Origin: Pseudoalteromonas lipolytica
GTDB lineage: Bacteria; Pseudomonadota; Gammaproteobacteria; Enterobacterales; Alteromonadaceae
NCBI RefSeq assembly: GCF_001306915.1
Contig: NZ_LJTC01000004.1
Coordinates: 258,608-322,607 of the forward strand
Reading direction: 5' to 3'
DNA length: 64,000 nt
Shown: in pieces, positions 14,970 through 51,941 of the stretch
How the letters are laid out: the number at the start of each line of letters is the position of its first letter
Position numbering within the stretch: position 1 is the stretch's first letter
Notes under the pieces: generated by a model
The model's database searches: none
Seen by the model: the letters and a program-made list of their open reading frames with translations, nothing else
Told to the model about the DNA's origin: nothing
Made by a program: the position numbers and the translations under genes

Positions 14970-16292
14970 ATGATTCACAGCAAATTGATTAAGGCGCTTT
15001 CTCTAGGCGCAGTATTGATAACCTCAAGTTTAGTGAAAGCAGAGCCATTGGCGCTCAATCAGGTGATTGATTATGCATTGACTCACGAGCCTTGGTTACA
15101 GGCAAATAAATACCAGCAACAGGCGATAGAAGCGCAAAGCATTGCGGCCGGTACCTTGCCGGATCCAGTGTTAACCGTTGGACTCATGAACTTACCAACC
15201 GATGGCTTTGCCTTTGATCAAGAAGGTATGACGCAATTCAAAGTGGGCTTGTCACAACAATTTAGCCGAGGTGATAGCCTTGCCCTACAGCAGCAAGCAT
15301 TAAAACAATCGGCTGAGCAATATCCTTGGCTTAGAGCAGACCGCCAAGCACAGGTTAAAGCCATTGTTAGTGAAGCATGGCTAAATGCCTATCGCGCGCA
15401 AAAAAGCATTCAACTGATCAACCAAGATAAAGCCTTATTTAATCAACTTATTGATATTACAGAAGCTAGCTATGCCAATACACTTGGCGCGACTCGCCAG
15501 CAGGATATTATTCGCGCTCAGCTAGAGCTGACTCGGCTTGAAGATAAGCTGGTGATGTTAGAGCAACAGTTTGATAGTGCCAAAAAGCGACTAGCACAAT
15601 GGCTACCTATTGAAATGCTAAACGGTGCAGTGAGCGATGAAAACACCAAGGTGACCGCAGTTATGGCTTATCAAGAGCTTGCACCATCTGGGGTGACTGA
15701 AGTGCTGATGAGCCACCCGGCTATTATCGCTATTGATCATGCTATGCGTGCTAAAAATACTCAAGTGCAAGTGGCGAAAGAAGCGTATAAGCCGCAATTT
15801 GGTATGAACCTTGGTTATGGCTATCGTGATGATACCCCGATGGGTGACTCTCGCGCTGACTTATTCTCTATTGGGGTGAGTGTTGATTTACCGCTGTTTA
15901 CTGATAACCGTCAAGATCAACAAGTCAATGCGGCAATAGCTAATGCCGAGGCGGTAAAAACCAACAAGCTTATTACCCTGCAAAAACTGCAAGGTCAGTA
16001 TTTTAAAGAGCTTAGCCAATTAAGCCGACTTGCTCAACGCAAAGCGCTGTATCAACAGCAGCTATTACCGCAAATGGCAGAGCAAGCGGAGGCGACGTTA
16101 AATGCTTACACCAATGATGATGGTGACTTTTCAGAAGTGATGCGTGCTCGCATTAGCGAACTTAACGCGAAAATTGATGCATTAAACATCGAAATTGATA
16201 AACAAATAACCCTCGCTCGCCTTAATTATTACGCAGCAGCAAAAGATAACCAAATAAATGCAGCACAAAGCCAAGGAGCTAGCAATGAATAA
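14970..16292 (+). CDS. CusC-like TolC-family outer-membrane channel
   Basis: The 440-residue protein begins at the ATG with GGAG six bases upstream, followed by a signal peptide cleaved after VKA. It has the two TolC repeats of long helices (LALNQVIDYAL at the start and ALEIDKQITLARLNYYAA near the end). There is no lipobox, unlike E. coli CusC, so it is not lipid-anchored. It forms the outer-membrane duct of the tripartite pump encoded with the adaptor and RND pump. It overlaps the adaptor gene by 8 bases. Confidence 0.88.
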   Translation: MIHSKLIKALSLGAVLITSSLVKAEPLALNQVIDYALTHEPWLQANKYQQQAIEAQSIAAGTLPDPVLTVGLMNLPTDGFAFDQEGMTQFKVGLSQQFSRGDSLALQQQALKQSAEQYPWLRADRQAQVKAIVSEAWLNAYRAQKSIQLINQDKALFNQLIDITEASYANTLGATRQQDIIRAQLELTRLEDKLVMLEQQFDSAKKRLAQWLPIEMLNGAVSDENTKVTAVMAYQELAPSGVTEVLMSHPAIIAIDHAMRAKNTQVQVAKEAYKPQFGMNLGYGYRDDTPMGDSRADLFSIGVSVDLPLFTDNRQDQQVNAAIANAEAVKTNKLITLQKLQGQYFKELSQLSRLAQRKALYQQQLLPQMAEQAEATLNAYTNDDGDFSEVMRARISELNAKIDALNIEIDKQITLARLNYYAAAKDNQINAAQSQGASNE

Positions 16293-45490: not shown

Positions 45491-45506
45491 TCAGTGATAC
45501 AAAAAG

Positions 45507-45530
45507 AAACCGCCCTAGGGCGGTTTTTTT
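45507..45530. terminator. Terminator after secF
   Basis: AAACCGCCC-TA-GGGCGGTTT followed by further T residues, 17 bases after the secF stop and facing the convergent polyol dehydrogenase gene. Confidence 0.9.
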
Positions 45531-45555: not shown

Positions 45556-47052
45556 CTACTTGGCCTTATAACTACTTAACACCGCCTCCATAATCTGCTC
45601 AATTGCCACTCCCGCATAGAGTTGGCTGATGTAATATTTATATTCATTACAAAATGACTCGTTCTCAATAATTGAGCCGAAAATGCTCGGTTGCTCAAGA
45701 AAAGCAAGTGGTGAAATGCGTGATGCATGAGCAGCCTGCTGTAATGTTTCAGCCATATCATCGATAACCTCTAAAGGCTGACCTTGTTGAGATGAATGCG
45801 TGTCGCTGTATAAGCACCAAGCTGCAATTACTAAATTAGCAATCGCACCATTCTCACCAATTTTAAGGTTCTCTACTATCGTAGGTACTAAAAAGGTGGA
45901 GACTTTACTTGCGCTTTGAGAGCAAATTCGTGCAAGGCTATCCTTGATGTTAGGGTTTGCAAATCGAGCTATCAGTGTTCGCTTATAATCACTTAGATCA
46001 ATACCAGGTACGTCATCTAAAATCGGTGTTACTTCGTTATCCATGAAGTTGCTTACCACTGTAGCAAATAAGGGATCTGAAATTGTTTGCTCTATGGTTT
46101 GATAGCCACGCAAAGATCCGAGTATTCCCATAACAGTATGGCTTGCATTTAATAAGCGAATTTTCATGGTTTCATAAGGCGTTACATCATTGACTATTTG
46201 CGCACCTACTTTCTCCCAAGCTGGGCGTTGTTGACAAAATTTATCCTCGATGACCCATTGGTGAAAAGGCTCACACGTGACAGGCCATGAATCAATCACT
46301 CCCAGCTGTTCTGCTAGAGCCATATCTTTATCTGTGGTTGCAGGCGTAATACGGTCGACCATTGCATTAGGAAAGCTAACTTGATTTGCGACCCAATCAG
46401 CAAGCTCTGAGTCATATGAACTAATGTAAGTAACTAACATTTTTCGTATGACATCACCGTTGTGTTGAACATTATCACAAGACTGAACTGTAAACGGTTT
46501 TTGACCACTCTTTCTGCGGCGATCTAAAGCAGCAGCAAGGTAGCCAAAAATCAGCTTTGGCTTGTTTGGGTTTGCTAAGTCATGTTGTATATCGGGGTTT
46601 GAAAAATCGAACTCGCCGGTTGATGGATCATAGTTATAACCCCCTTCGGTTATTGTTAATGAAACAATCTGGGTTTCCTCAGCGGCCATTTTATTTATAA
46701 CAGCTTCTGGATCATCTGGCGCTAAGAGAAAATCGGTTAAACAGCCAATTATTTGCGTATCAGTTTTGCCATTTGGGTGCTTTACCAATAGGGAGTACAG
46801 ATAATCTTGTGCTTCTAAAGATTGCTTTATAGCCCGATCAGCCTCGCGTAAGCCTATACCGCAAATGCCCCAACTTAGATCGCCAGTATGGTTGATGTAG
46901 TTATCAGTATAGAAAGCTTGATGAGAGCGGTGAAACCCGCCCACACCAACATGGACAATCCCAGCTTTTAGTGATTGTCGGTTATAACGCGGCACTGATA
47001 TAGATGTAGGAAAAGAGCCCAGTGTTGAGTTATTTAAAGAAAGTGCGCTCAT
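45556..47052 (-). CDS. Mannitol 2-dehydrogenase-type polyol dehydrogenase
   Basis: The 498-residue enzyme belongs to the long-chain polyol dehydrogenase family (mannitol 2-dehydrogenase, arabinitol 4-dehydrogenase, fructuronate reductase). The N-terminal Rossmann motif is VHVGVGGFHRSHQAFY; the catalytic Lys with its Asn and His is in KIRLLNASH. TEGGYNY and CDNVQHNG are further family motifs. The length near 500 fits mannitol 2-dehydrogenase best, which oxidises mannitol to fructose with NAD. It lies 17 bases after an NCS1 permease gene on the same strand, indicating an uptake and oxidation operon. The polyol itself is inferred. Confidence 0.88.
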   Translation of the reverse strand: MSALSLNNSTLGSFPTSISVPRYNRQSLKAGIVHVGVGGFHRSHQAFYTDNYINHTGDLSWGICGIGLREADRAIKQSLEAQDYLYSLLVKHPNGKTDTQIIGCLTDFLLAPDDPEAVINKMAAEETQIVSLTITEGGYNYDPSTGEFDFSNPDIQHDLANPNKPKLIFGYLAAALDRRRKSGQKPFTVQSCDNVQHNGDVIRKMLVTYISSYDSELADWVANQVSFPNAMVDRITPATTDKDMALAEQLGVIDSWPVTCEPFHQWVIEDKFCQQRPAWEKVGAQIVNDVTPYETMKIRLLNASHTVMGILGSLRGYQTIEQTISDPLFATVVSNFMDNEVTPILDDVPGIDLSDYKRTLIARFANPNIKDSLARICSQSASKVSTFLVPTIVENLKIGENGAIANLVIAAWCLYSDTHSSQQGQPLEVIDDMAETLQQAAHASRISPLAFLEQPSIFGSIIENESFCNEYKYYISQLYAGVAIEQIMEAVLSSYKAK

Positions 47053-47069
47053 GTTTTGCCCCCGAGCAG

Positions 47070-48782
47070 TTAAACGGCTGAAAATTGTTTTTTACGCTGC
47101 ATAGCCCAATACGCACTCGCGAAGTAAATGATGGTACAAGCGAATCCACTATTGAAAAATAACGTTCTATTATGTTCATAGGAAGCAACATCTGGTGAGT
47201 TGAACATGGCATTTGCTGCTAGCACCACAGTAACACCTAGACTTAACCAAGCAACCGCAGTGAGTACTTTGGTTAACAGGCGCTGATCAAGAATAAATAC
47301 TGGCTCATTGGCTGCTTGTTCGGCGTGAAATCTTTCTACTTTTTTATCAAAATTAGCTAGCTCTGCTTCTTCTTCAGGATACTTCTGCGCAGCGCCATTG
47401 CGTTTTGCTAATAAAATATATACGACAATACTGAATACCCAAGTTGGTAAGAAAAGGTAGTAGAATGGGATTATATTGATCGCGTTTAGTGTAAATCCGA
47501 ACACTAGGCCAAGTGCCCACGCAATAACAGCCGCAGAGCTATGCTCAAGCTTTTTGTAGGTGACCCAATAACGAGTTAGACCTATCTTTGGAAATAAAAA
47601 ATGTTCAGCAAAAACGATAGCGCCAACAGGTACGACTAAAAGTCCTGCGTATGTAAGAAGTGGCAGTAGCTTAGTAAATACAAATGGAAAGCAAGCAATT
47701 AAAACAGTAACAATGCCCACTAAAAATGTCGTTCTGGTACGCGAAAGGTTACTAAATATAGCTTGTGCAGCAAGACCAGCTCGGTATAAGTTTGCATTTG
47801 CTGTAGTCCAACCTGCAACAATAACAATAACTAACCCAGATAACCCAAGTGCATGGAACGCAACATCGCCAGGATCTAGCTCAGTAATCGACTTTTTCAC
47901 CAAAACTGCTGTACCCGCACCCATAATGCCTGCAGAGATCCAAGCGATATAGTGACCAAATAACATACCGGCTGATGTGCATAAGCCATAGCTTTTTTTC
48001 TTCGCGTAACGCAGCAGAGCCATGTCTATTAAACCAAAGTGAGTGATGGTGTTTGCTGCCCAAGAGAAACCAATGACTTCTAATAGCCCTATGCCTGGCT
48101 CACCATTGGCATCTAACCCAGTCCATACAGAGACACTGCCAATGTGCATGAAGTCTCCCCAACTCGAGACAGAGGTTTCACCAATGACCGAATTGGCAAG
48201 TTCAGGCATGAGTACTAATGGACCGCTGATGAACATAACAAATAACCACGGAGCACAAATACCTGAGAATTGCGATACAGCGTTAAAACCATACATAGCA
48301 ACCAATACAACGATAATGCCTACGGCAAGAACGACCATGACAAACCATGCGTTTGTTGGATACCAATTTAATTGCGCGGGAATATCAAGTGCAAAGCGAA
48401 CAGCCGTTGCAGAAACGGTGATCATAGCAGCAGAAATAACCGTAAAGATTATGACGTTCGCCCAGTTATATAACCGGGTCATTGAGTTTCCTGCTATTTT
48501 TTGAAGGTAAGTATATAGACTCAGGCGTGTTTCAACAGCAATTGGGGTGGTGATTAGTGTCCAGCTTAGCACGGCGAGAATATTACCAATTAGCAAGCCA
48601 AGCAGAATATCCGTCATGGTTGCGCCAAGTGCGACAAAGGTTGCGCCAAATACAAATTCAGTAGCAGCAACATGCTCTCCTGCGTATAAACCTAAAAAAT
48701 GTCTCCATCCTTTGAGCTTATGTTTTGCAATAGGTAATTGCTCTTCTTCTATATGGTTTAGGTCTTTATGATTAGTATTCAT
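47070..48782 (-). CDS. NCS1-family permease (cytosine/purine/hydantoin-like), probable polyol transporter
   Basis: The 570-residue protein has about 12 membrane helices and NCS1-like features: GLYAGEHVAATEFVFGATFVALG at the start, IGNILAVLSW, and GWTTANANLYRAGLAAQ in TM8. It also has a charged cytoplasmic loop near residue 465 (KYPEEEAELANFDKKVERFHAEQ) before two final helices. NCS1 carriers usually move nucleobases and related compounds with protons or sodium. Here the neighbours are a polyol dehydrogenase, a carbohydrate porin and a SorC regulator, with no nucleobase gene, so a polyol substrate is plausible. Confidence 0.8.
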   Translation of the reverse strand: MNTNHKDLNHIEEEQLPIAKHKLKGWRHFLGLYAGEHVAATEFVFGATFVALGATMTDILLGLLIGNILAVLSWTLITTPIAVETRLSLYTYLQKIAGNSMTRLYNWANVIIFTVISAAMITVSATAVRFALDIPAQLNWYPTNAWFVMVVLAVGIIVVLVAMYGFNAVSQFSGICAPWLFVMFISGPLVLMPELANSVIGETSVSSWGDFMHIGSVSVWTGLDANGEPGIGLLEVIGFSWAANTITHFGLIDMALLRYAKKKSYGLCTSAGMLFGHYIAWISAGIMGAGTAVLVKKSITELDPGDVAFHALGLSGLVIVIVAGWTTANANLYRAGLAAQAIFSNLSRTRTTFLVGIVTVLIACFPFVFTKLLPLLTYAGLLVVPVGAIVFAEHFLFPKIGLTRYWVTYKKLEHSSAAVIAWALGLVFGFTLNAINIIPFYYLFLPTWVFSIVVYILLAKRNGAAQKYPEEEAELANFDKKVERFHAEQAANEPVFILDQRLLTKVLTAVAWLSLGVTVVLAANAMFNSPDVASYEHNRTLFFNSGFACTIIYFASAYWAMQRKKQFSAV

Positions 48783-49018
48783 AAGTAACGATCCCAGTAC
48801 TTTTTAGGCATGCTGATTTGTAAGCAAATAGCTTAACTGCATCTTTATTTGTGTGTTCATTGTTTAACACTAAAACTTTTTATTAGATAAATAGAAAATT
48901 TCAAAAATCAACACGCCCATGATTGTTGTCATTGAGTATTTACATAAAGTAAATCTTCCTGTTTGGGCAAATGGGTTGCACGTGGGCATAATCCTATTTT
49001 GATTGCTGTTTGTCAATG

Positions 49019-49057
49019 TTAATGAATCAGTCTATTTAACCGGCTGATTGTCATTAA
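49019..49057. promoter_or_regulatory. Imperfect inverted repeat, candidate operator
   Basis: TTAATGAATCAG (49019-49030) is matched by CTGATTGTCATTAA (49044-49057), complementary except for a 2-base bulge, around a 13-base centre. The size suits a tetrameric SorC-type repressor, but binding is inferred only from position. Confidence 0.45.
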
Positions 49058-49220
49058 TAAGTCGAAGTAATTGCTCTTGTTCTGGAATTAAAGCTTCATT
49101 AAATCAATCTTGATAAAGTTGTTATTTTTTAGTTGGTTATGCTGGTTTTTGATTTTTCATGAAATGGTGTTCATATGAAAGAGGATTAGTTTTATCCATT
49201 TTAATTTCTCTTTCACAGAT

Positions 49221-49240
49221 TCTAATTTCTTTTAATTAGA
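49221..49240. promoter_or_regulatory. Short inverted repeat upstream of the porin promoter
   Basis: TCTAATT and AATTAGA flank six bases (TCTTTT), about 23 bases before the TTGACA element. It could be an operator half or chance in AT-rich DNA. Confidence 0.3.
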
Positions 49241-49363
49241 ATTTGAGCTCTATTTTTTGATGTTGACAAATATATTCTGTGTTAGGAATATGCTCATGTT
49301 TATGTCATTTGCTCTTTCTTGGGCGTTGAATACTAAGATGTTGATCAGCTAGGGCAAATTAAA

Positions 49364-50728
49364 ATGGAGAACACGCATATGAACACAAATCAACAACCAA
49401 AGTTTTGTCGTACATGGAAAGGGGAAAGTGAACGCTATTTAAACGTCGCTCGGCTTAAATCTATCGCAGCCATTATGTTGCTGTATTCTCAGTCAGGTTA
49501 TGCAGATGAAAGTTTTGATGTTCACAGCCATCTAAGTGGCGGTTGGTTAGGGGCAAGAGATAAGCTAGCAGAGCAAGGTGTGGATGTTCGCTTAGGCTAC
49601 TTCAGTCAAACAGCTCACAACTTAAAAGGGGGAGAAAGTACAGAAACGGCTTATGCCGATCAGTTTTTTGCCGGTGGCTACTTTAATTTAGAAAAATTGC
49701 TTAATTGGTCGGGTGCCGAATTTAAGGTGGAGCTTACCAACCGTAATGGCGAGCTTATTAATGAAAAAGCAAACCTGCCAGTTTTGCTGCAGTCGCAACA
49801 AATTTATGGTCGTGGCAATGTAACGCGTTTAACTCAATTCTCTCTAACTCAGCATTTATTTGAAGATCAACTTAGCATTAAAGTGGGTCGAATTTACCCA
49901 AGTGCTGATTTTTTTGCCATGAGTTGTGCCTTTCAGCACCTAACATTTTGCAGTGGTGGCTCATCCAATTATTTGAGTAGTAGTTGGTATGGTGACCCCC
50001 TTAGTGCACTAGGCGTGCAACTAACATACAAAGTCACTGATAATTTGCTTTTTAAACTAGGCAGTTATGATGCAAACCCTGCAACCATGTCATTAAATCA
50101 AGGGTTAAAATTAACAACATCAGGAGAGGTTAACGGCACGACCTTGGTAGGTGAGTTGGAATATAAACGCCAATACAAGAATGGGTTAGATGGAGATTAT
50201 CGATTTGGCGTTGTCCGCAGCAGTTTAGATAAAACTAAACTAGTCAATAATGCGGGTTACCCTGCTGGCACGACAAGTGATATGGCCGCTATAGAAGATA
50301 CTGATAATGCATTTTATTTTAATATTGAACAACAGCTAACTCGAAATAGTTCTGGAGGTGGCTTACGTATCTTTGCGAGTATGATTCACGCAGATCAAAG
50401 TGTCAGCGCTATAGGCGAAGTTTTGGCTTTTGGCGGATATATTGATGCACCTTTAGTTAGTAGACCACACGACCGTATTGGTTTTGCTGTGGGCCGAAAC
50501 AGTGTCAGTAATGAGCTTAGTGACGCTCAGCGCTTTTATAATACGAATTTTTCAGATGATGAAGTACTCGTAAGGGATCATGAGTACCCGATTGAGTTAA
50601 ATTATAACTATGTTGTTACCCCAGCAATACAGTTAATGCCTAGTATTCAGTATATCATCGACCCTAATGGTGATAATGATGCTGAGAATGCAATGATTGC
50701 AGGTTTGCAGCTAAGTTTAAATTTTTAG
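49364..50728 (+). CDS. OprB-family carbohydrate-selective porin
   Basis: The 454-residue protein is an outer-membrane beta-barrel of the OprB type: GGWLGARDKLAEQGVDVRLGYF at the mature start, regular alternating beta strands, and a final aromatic residue (LQLSLNF). The hydrophobic signal core is unusually late (about residues 30-47), so the true start may be the ATG five codons on, which has GGAG upstream. OprB porins pass glucose and polyols through the outer membrane, as in mannitol loci of pseudomonads. It is divergent from the permease and upstream of the SorC regulator. Confidence 0.85.
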   Translation: MENTHMNTNQQPKFCRTWKGESERYLNVARLKSIAAIMLLYSQSGYADESFDVHSHLSGGWLGARDKLAEQGVDVRLGYFSQTAHNLKGGESTETAYADQFFAGGYFNLEKLLNWSGAEFKVELTNRNGELINEKANLPVLLQSQQIYGRGNVTRLTQFSLTQHLFEDQLSIKVGRIYPSADFFAMSCAFQHLTFCSGGSSNYLSSSWYGDPLSALGVQLTYKVTDNLLFKLGSYDANPATMSLNQGLKLTTSGEVNGTTLVGELEYKRQYKNGLDGDYRFGVVRSSLDKTKLVNNAGYPAGTTSDMAAIEDTDNAFYFNIEQQLTRNSSGGGLRIFASMIHADQSVSAIGEVLAFGGYIDAPLVSRPHDRIGFAVGRNSVSNELSDAQRFYNTNFSDDEVLVRDHEYPIELNYNYVVTPAIQLMPSIQYIIDPNGDNDAENAMIAGLQLSLNF

Positions 50729-50823
50729 TTAAAGCTTAAACCGACGTTATTTGGCAGCGAGTGCACGACTTTTGTTGTGCCGCTGAGAAGGGCTTGCGGT
50801 TATTGTCTCTTTGTGAAATACAT

Positions 50824-50865
50824 AGGCACCTCACTAATATTTAACAAAATTTAGTAAGGTGTCTT
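50824..50865 (+). terminator. Probable terminator hairpin after the porin gene
   Basis: AGGCACCTCACTAA pairs with TTAGTAAGGTGTCT through 12 Watson-Crick pairs, one G-U and one mismatch, around a 13-base loop. The T-run after it is short, so termination may be partial. Confidence 0.5.
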
Positions 50866-50984
50866 GTTAGTTTAGAGTGTGAACCCTAAAATTGTTATTC
50901 ATGACAGATTATGTATAAAATAGCCGCTGAATAGCTGATTTTTCTAATCATTTACCTCATTTATTGTTCAAACAGGCGTATAAA

Positions 50985-51941
50985 ATGGCTTCAATTCCTA
51001 GCAATGATAATCAAAAATTAGAGGAAGCAGCGAGGGCTGGCTGGCTCTACTATGTTGCTGGTAAAACACAAGATGAAATAGCTAAGCAACTTAATACGTC
51101 TCGCCAATCTGCGCAAAGGCTTGTTGCTTTAGCAGTATCTCAAGGGTTAATAAAAGTACGATTAGAACATCCAATTCGACGCTGTATGGAGCTTGCTGAT
51201 GCGCTACAAAATCGATACGGTTTGCTTAGTTGTGAAGTGGTGCCTAGCGAGAGTAACGATATTAATTCTACCATTGGTTTGGCTCAAGCGGGTGCCGCAG
51301 AAATTGAAAGACAACTAAAGCAGCGCCATGCAAAAATCATTGCGTTTGGTACTGGAAGAGTGTTGCGCGCATGCGCAGAAGAGCTACCTACGATGCAATG
51401 CCCACACCATCGTATTGTATCTTTAGTTGGAAATATTGCTCAGGATGGCTCAGCAAGTCGCTATGAAGTAGCTATTCATGTTGCAGAAAGGGTTGGTGCG
51501 CAACATTTCCCTATGCCAGTTCCAGTTATAGCAGAATCTGAAGCTGATAAAGCAGATTGGCAGCAATTAACGCATGTTAAAAATGTACATCAACTGGCAT
51601 CACAAGCGGATGTTTCATTTGTTGGTGTTGGAGATTTAGGAATAAATTCTCCCCTTCATTTAGACGGCTTTGTTACTCGGCATGAACTAGCTGCGCTTGA
51701 CGCTATTGGTGCAACAGGTGAAGTAATTAGCTGGATTTTCGATAGTGAAGGTCATCTCGTCGAATCAGAAATAAATAATCGCGTGACGAGTGCGGTACTT
51801 TCTCCATCAAATGATAAACGTGTTATTGGGATTGCTGCGGGTGACAGTAAAGTGCCAGCCATTGCAGGAGCGATCGAATCAGGAATGATCAATAGTCTCA
51901 TTACAAATGAACTAACAGCAGAAGCACTGTTGCTGAGGTAA
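50985..51941 (+). CDS. SorC/DeoR-type sugar-binding transcriptional regulator
   Basis: The 318-residue protein has an N-terminal helix-turn-helix (GKTQDEIAKQLNTSRQSAQRLVALAVSQGLIKV) and a SorC-type phosphosugar-binding domain (IAFGTGRVLRACAEELP, FVGVGDLG, VIGIAAGDSKVPAIAGAI). The ATG at 50985 was preferred to a TTG seven codons upstream. SorC regulators sense a sugar phosphate or polyol derivative and control nearby uptake and dehydrogenase genes, so it most likely governs the permease-dehydrogenase operon and the porin. Confidence 0.88.
   Translation: MASIPSNDNQKLEEAARAGWLYYVAGKTQDEIAKQLNTSRQSAQRLVALAVSQGLIKVRLEHPIRRCMELADALQNRYGLLSCEVVPSESNDINSTIGLAQAGAAEIERQLKQRHAKIIAFGTGRVLRACAEELPTMQCPHHRIVSLVGNIAQDGSASRYEVAIHVAERVGAQHFPMPVPVIAESEADKADWQQLTHVKNVHQLASQADVSFVGVGDLGINSPLHLDGFVTRHELAALDAIGATGEVISWIFDSEGHLVESEINNRVTSAVLSPSNDKRVIGIAAGDSKVPAIAGAIESGMINSLITNELTAEALLLR

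Follow-up and report, generated by a model that had tools for sequence, protein, structure and literature searches.

A permease of NCS1-like fold linked to mannitol-type dehydrogenases in Pseudoalteromonas and its likely place in a hexitol cassette

What does a permease resembling the nucleobase carriers of the NCS1 family transport when its gene stands in front of one coding for a mannitol-type dehydrogenase? This question is raised by a locus of the marine bacterium Pseudoalteromonas lipolytica lying in the 64 kb stretch of DNA that was analysed as a whole (the window), and which an earlier note had described as a polyol locus using an NCS1 permease. The genes that it named, coding for the dehydrogenase (MDH), the permease, an OprB porin and a SorC regulator, are present and placed as it said, and the MDH, OprB and SorC assignments are confirmed by Pfam. 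Genomes are designated below by G and a number (G000 is the window's assembly, G001 and G025 are two close ones) and individual loci by L and a number. The locus contains the following features:

45503 to 45530, both strands: hairpin resembling a terminator, between the secF and MDH genes, a consensus match only, such matches being here not above shuffles
45556 to 47052, minus strand: MDH, mannitol 2-dehydrogenase-type polyol dehydrogenase of 498 aa, gene 2 of the permease operon (PF01232 and PF08125)
47070 to 48782, minus strand: permease of NCS1-like (LeuT) fold, 570 aa, predicted Na+-coupled polyol carrier (structure model, fold and profile comparison)
48964 to 49016, minus strand: promoter and candidate SorC operator of the permease-MDH operon, TTGACA-N17-GATTATGCCCA-N13-TGCCCA
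49263 to 49315, plus strand: promoter and candidate SorC operator of oprB, TTGACA-N17-GAATATGCTCA-N13-TGCTCT
49364 to 50728, plus strand: OprB-type carbohydrate porin for outer-membrane entry (PF04966, 242.6 bits)
50964 to 51941, plus strand: SorC/DeoR-type sugar-responsive regulator (PF04198, 205.8 bits), with a TTG start in the list of open reading frames

In the window's reading frames the permease gene precedes the MDH gene by 17 bp on the minus strand, the OprB and SorC genes diverge from this pair on the plus strand, and SecD/SecF genes (names read from sequence) adjoin the locus on the left. MDH matches PF01232 with 178.7 bits and PF08125 with 151 bits, far above cut-off, as are the OprB and SorC matches; the N-terminal helix-turn-helix of SorC (residues 27-66) matches the Pfam family MarR_2 with 27 bits, right at the cut-off. 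SorC is 81% identical to the SorC of the polyol cluster L035. Among solved structures, MDH is closest to 1lj8, a mannitol dehydrogenase (470.7 bits). Asn191, Asp230, Lys295, Asn300, His303, Arg373 and Lys381 of 1lj8, which we take to be catalytic or substrate-binding in mannitol dehydrogenase, are all identical in MDH in an alignment with hand-counted positions. All NCBIfam matches of MDH stay below their cut-offs, so these scores do not separate mannitol from sorbitol or arabitol as its substrate.

Family and fold of the permease

Searches against Pfam returned no relevant match for the permease, alone or across 21 relatives. The NCS1 model PF02133 (Transp_cyt_pur) did not match the permease at E<=10, a search in which HMMER filters discard most matches above about 0.1, nor any of the 21 family members at E<=1, nor any place in the window's genome. 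PF00474 (SSF) likewise gave no match to the permease at E<=10, with most matches above about 0.1 again discarded by the filters. The sole NCBIfam match was to the NCS1 model CytX, whose cut-off of 309.85 bits is far above the 25.4 bits obtained; three of the 21 relatives showed a sub-cut-off match to the same model. Sequence searches of solved structures gave nothing for the permease (E<=0.001) or for its 21-member profile (E<=1), and no relative of the permease was found in viral contigs.

A scan of species genomes yielded at least 589 pattern matches, at least 542 of them confirmed by tblastn as permease relatives, and the best 80 were kept. Fifty-two of these 80, together with the permeases of the window, L016, L017 and L027, form the set of 56 chosen sequences used for the profile and for the structure model (mean pLDDT 90.7). 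The two NCS1 carriers CodB (7qoa) and Mhp1 (2jln, 4d1a) top both fold-match lists of this model, with Z 27.3 over 391 residues (rmsd 3.4) and Z 24.7 over 415 residues (rmsd 3.6), respectively; the next group consists of carriers of the SSS type (Z 19.9). Comparison of profiles by hhalign gave 99.5% over 400 columns against CodB and 20 PF02133 proteins, versus 0.3% against 20 SSS proteins. SSS carriers are known to transport sugars with Na+, and vSGLT (3dh4, Z 18.1) and SiaT (5nva, Z 18.8) have a LeuT-like core as the permease does. This family was considered as the true affiliation of the permease and rejected on the profile comparison and the lack of a PF00474 match, its fold scores being lower as well.

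The permease resembles CodB and Mhp1 in fold, in profile and in the Na2 threonines of TM8, but is only 17% and 13% identical to them over the structural alignments, has no PF02133 match and has lost the stacking Trp and the TM8 Asn; it is also longer than CodB (570 against 419 aa), with about 100 extra residues, mostly helical, after the CodB-like part. PMC9379551 describes the roles of the CodB residues (Trp108 in base stacking, Phe204, Thr278/Thr279 of the Na2 site, Asn280) and presents the TM3 base-stacking residue as predominantly Trp across the NCS1 family. Thr278/Thr279 correspond in the hhalign mapping to Thr326/Thr327 of the permease, which are conserved in 56/56 sequences. The position of Trp108, a Trp in 19 of the 21 proteins of the NCS1 set, is occupied in the 56 permeases by Ile (39), Leu (15), Phe (1) or Met (1) and never by Trp, and that of Asn280, an Asn in 18 of the same 21, is Ala or Ser in every permease. 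At the TM6 aromatic (CodB Phe204) the alignment is gapped, and an invariant Trp241 of the permease lies nearby. As the Na2 threonines are kept while the equivalents of Trp108 and Asn280 are lost, the permease probably operates in the manner of a Na+-coupled NCS1 carrier while missing features by which nucleobases are read.

The permease is a member of a separate, large, Pfam-less branch of the NCS1 fold. The NCS1 label of the earlier note holds as a distant relation by fold and hhalign; strict membership of the family fails, Pfam being silent and CytX far below its cut-off.

Distribution, neighbours and phylogeny

Among 108 genomes of the same genus, the permease (at least 64% identity) and MDH (at least 54%) are found in the same 28, a co-occurrence with a Fisher p of 1.6e-26 when kinship is ignored, and they are adjacent in all 28, with gaps of 21-130 bp. 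Seven other genomes of the genus have only distant matches to the MDH family (at most 39% identity) and no permease. G030 and G106 carry further, more distant permeases (46% identity) with no adjacent MDH, the one in G030 adjoining rhamnose genes. MDH lies within 1.5 kb of the permease in 52 of the best 80 of at least 542 relatives, versus none of 40 control loci with like flanks, of which 20 were ordinary NCS1 and 20 SSS. Within the same best 80 of at least 542, MDH-linked permeases occur in Pseudomonadota, Bacteroidota, Planctomycetota, Verrucomicrobiota and Kiritimatiellota. In five plasmid records, four from Pseudoalteromonas and one from Catenovulum, the permease is annotated as 'hypothetical protein'.

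A tree of 92 rows was built from the window, 79 of the 80 kept loci, nine more of the 21-member family set and three of the 21 NCS1 proteins. L083, whose contig ends with the gene, was left out. Some rows are near-copies of one another, L065 and L017q even being identical, and the branches of L033 and L034 are long. The window's clade comprises 64 rows (SH-aLRT 97), of which 55 have MDH as neighbour, seven a sorbitol-type binding protein (including L086, which has MDH nearby too) and two neither, namely L093 and L094, the contig of the latter starting 152 bp before the gene.

The sister branch of 25 rows includes all five labelled rhamnose-linked members. Three of the rhamnose-linked sisters are plasmid-borne, in Alteromonas sp. 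76-1, in Catenovulum and in a Pseudoalteromonas from cheese rind, and are accompanied by genes for rhamnose isomerase and aldolase. Sister permeases in such rhamnose isomerase/aldolase clusters are L027:8622-10427, L030:12001-13713, L031:2472-4181 and L032:11986-13701; judging from these surroundings they are probably rhamnose carriers, and the plasmid records of L030-L032 annotate them as 'nucleoside transporter'. Other rhamnose permeases are named in PMC3870299, and the words 'nucleoside', 'permease' and 'symporter' do not occur in PMC6431674. A conserved cluster was also noticed in planctomycete relatives (L100, L101, L102, L104, L114), where genes read from sequence as rhamnose-isomerase-like and alcohol-dehydrogenase-like are accompanied by a third family.

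That the permease could be an ordinary nucleobase or vitamin NCS1 carrier, lying beside a polyol gene by chance, is what its nearest folds, its profile and its weak CytX match might suggest. This explanation is very improbable in view of the invariable co-occurrence and adjacency with MDH in 28 genomes, the conserved operator described below, the 0/56 counts for both the stacking Trp and the Asn280 equivalent, and the rhamnose genes beside members of the sister branch.

In seven loci of the window's clade a binding-protein gene lies directly upstream of the permease gene:

L085: 8586-9905
L086: 8616-9938
L087: 8522-9847
L088: 8552-9922
L089: 2255-3649
L091 and L092: 8556-9971

These seven proteins are 47-65% identical to the substrate-binding protein (SBP) of L035, which matches the sorbitol-binding protein 4rya with 690.8 bits; the SBP of L087, the one compared with solved structures, matches 4rya with 624.2 bits. 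ABC membrane genes like those of L035 were found near L086 only, within flanks that are short on one side in L085 and L089. From this gene order, the SBP-linked permeases may be binding-protein-dependent carriers of NCS1-like fold. It is conceivable, though we regard it as rather doubtful, that a large branch of the NCS1 fold, lacking a model in the Pfam version searched, has shifted from nucleobases to sugars, giving a hexitol clade (MDH- or SBP-linked) and a rhamnose-linked sister, and that the carriers in part of the hexitol clade each work with their own sorbitol/mannitol-binding protein.

Operator, kinases and the likely substrate

An alignment of four relatives revealed a conserved promoter with paired repeats in the permease-OprB gap. 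The pattern TTGACA-N17-GRWTATGCYCA-N13-TGCYCW has two matches in the 64 kb window versus 0.00 expected from 100 shuffles; as it was drawn from these two sites, fair tests of it lie outside the window. G000, G001 and G025 each contain exactly two copies of the operator core, always at the permease-OprB gap, and a reversed control pattern has no match in these genomes. The core was found in 24 of the 108 genus genomes: 23 belong to the 28 that have the permease, and one to the 80 that lack it. Each of the 23 has a site ahead of the permease gene or of the genes that lead up to it; five permease genomes (G032, G021, G022, G019, G106) yielded no core. The lone genome with the core and no permease, G117, has near it no gene matching the reference set. 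Across relatives, promoter and operator were present in 31 of 194 loci, several of which overlap or share genomes. In G025 the site on the oprB side overlaps with the start given for that reading frame (L016:9573), which was probably set too early. A further, relaxed match, at 15314-15338 of the window, has no promoter part and was set aside. SorC is the presumed binder of the paired TGCYCA repeats, since its gene is co-located with them.

Fourteen genomes with the arrangement HAD-permease-MDH-PfkB have a second operator site on another contig, and this site precedes a porin-SBP-ABC operon in 6/6 cases fetched out of the 14. Two of these sites were read further, and ABC membrane genes, an ATPase gene and a SorC gene follow. 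The SBPs of those operons are 71-73% identical to that of L035, whose cluster brings together SorC, HAD, a second MDH, ABC, SBP and OprB genes, with permease, MDH and PfkB genes divergently. By its gene content the window locus looks like a reduced form of the L035 cluster.

The polyol might enter by such an ABC system, with the permease as a co-regulated carrier that imports or exports something related, such as fructose or another ketose. The operator in front of polyol-type ABC operons and the presence of both systems side by side in L035 would fit this, and where that operator also governs a polyol-type ABC importer, a need for the permease to carry the same substrate is not obvious. We consider it unlikely. 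The exact core stands only before the permease and OprB in G000, G001 and G025, so the search for the core found no ABC importer under that operator there, and the permease directly follows a binding-protein gene in seven loci, including L087 with its structure-compared SBP.

The fate of the oxidised product was approached through the kinases. A PfkB kinase gene lies within 2.5 kb in 26 of the 52 MDH-bearing permease loci from the best 80 relatives, and none was found within that distance in the other 26. The one tested, from L028, has a fructokinase as best match in both the PDB and NCBIfam, below the NCBIfam cut-off. No such gene is present at the window locus, and to that extent the absence of a fructokinase noted earlier stands; elsewhere in the genome, G000:C13:111706-112638 encodes a PfkB protein of 317 aa whose best solved matches are fructokinases (281 bits to 3ljs) and which reaches 233 bits with the NCBIfam fructokinase model, against a cut-off of 450. 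This gene adjoins one read from sequence as N-acylglucosamine-2-epimerase-like. A fructokinase-like PfkB is found in G000 and G025, and none of this type in G001, a single contig that may lack a second replicon. Two other kinases were set aside as fructokinases, the ROK kinase of L121 for its nag-type neighbours (names read from sequence) and the PfkB of L130, which is more likely KdgK because its neighbours read as a KDPG aldolase and an MFS carrier. An HAD phosphatase (L028:7924-8598), placed before the permease in loci of the HAD-permease-MDH-PfkB type, accompanies many cassettes; its best NCBIfam match, below cut-off, is 6-phosphogluconate phosphatase.

The absence of a PTS is borne out, with no match to the EIIC model PF02378 in the window's genome and the two close ones. 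As for an ABC transporter, none is found among the five locus proteins run through Pfam, and relatives do have a polyol-type one under the same operator. The argument that the earlier note built on missing transporter and fructokinase genes is therefore weak, with that shared operator and with PfkB near half of the MDH loci.

FGGY_N has one match in each of the same three genomes. The one of the window's genome (L137:1492-3144) is a ribulokinase (724.5 bits, above cut-off), xylulokinase scoring far below; it lies beside a transaldolase-like gene (read from sequence), and the 3.4 kb locus contains no further arabinose gene.

The cassette could also serve D-arabitol, which MDH would convert to D-xylulose for a pentulose kinase and the pentose phosphate pathway. 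The second-best NCBIfam match of MDH is to the D-arabinitol 4-dehydrogenase model NF043014 (356 bits, cut-off 600), and both the ribulokinase with its transaldolase-like neighbour and the lack of a fructokinase at the locus could be read in this sense. Arabitol is nevertheless disfavoured, because no PTS EIIC was found in the three genomes and the only FGGY_N match of G000 is a ribulokinase. The PfkB kinases near MDH-linked permeases, the mannitol dehydrogenase as best solved relative of MDH and the fructokinase-like gene elsewhere in the genome also speak against it, and we hold it to be quite unlikely.

The locus is best explained as a cassette for the uptake and oxidation of a hexitol, most likely mannitol, and we regard this as likely. 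The polyol would cross the outer membrane by way of OprB, the permease, with its NCS1-like fold, would probably bring it inward with Na+, MDH would oxidise it to a ketose (fructose in the case of mannitol) and a kinase encoded elsewhere in the genome would phosphorylate the ketose. SorC would repress the two divergent promoters by binding pairs of TGCYCA repeats that overlap the -10 boxes, and would probably release the DNA upon binding the polyol or a product. The polyol link of the permease is strong and draws good support from the co-occurrence with MDH, the order of the genes, the tree and the shared operator; polyol transport itself, its coupling to Na+, its direction and fructose as the product are what we infer. 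The suggestion that some NCS1 members carry polyols is partly supported, in its link to polyols, and understates the case in its family part, the carriers being a separate, Pfam-less branch of the NCS1 fold without the stacking Trp.

Relation to known systems and significance

Brown algae contain mannitol as one of their major sugar alcohols. In some Bacteroidota, operons for mannitol 2-dehydrogenase and fructokinase are reportedly preceded by 'a predicted mannitol permease' (work on Zobellia attributed to Groisillier et al., 2015). These operons share the permease-MDH-PfkB order with L070, L073, L075, L078 and L084; Zobellia itself relies on an ABC system. For Shewanella frigidimarina, PMC2996990 presents a pathway predicted in 2010 with mtlR-II, mtlP, mtlZ-II and mtlX, and states that the strain did not grow on mannitol despite it, which counts against the mannitol reading of the window's similarly composed cassette. 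As described there, this pathway counts five genes including the regulator, the permease and mtlZ; the Shewanella loci L063 and L064 have the order HAD-SorC-permease-MDH-PfkB, and the window variant differs from the pathway in having OprB and neither kinase nor HAD. By analogy with these loci it is plausible that mtlP of S. frigidimarina is a member of the window's permease family. The prediction of a mannitol-permease role is itself probably not new, since mtlP and the Bacteroidota permease precede it. A search of open-licence papers, through titles and abstract openings, found none on NCS1-type polyol or rhamnose carriers among the papers listed, and that literature showed neither the placing of the family in an NCS1 fold lacking a Pfam model nor the sister branch linked to sugars nor the operator.

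With at least 542 tblastn-confirmed relatives in one scan of species genomes, the family is large, and since records name its members 'hypothetical protein' or 'nucleoside transporter', a probable sugar-uptake family has gone unseen or misnamed. With the shared candidate operator the regulon can be tested directly, and the permease allows one to ask how an NCS1 pocket gets rebuilt for sugars. TRAP and TTT systems are binding-protein-dependent secondary transporters; if the tentative proposal above holds true, the SBP-linked permeases would be a new kind besides these two.
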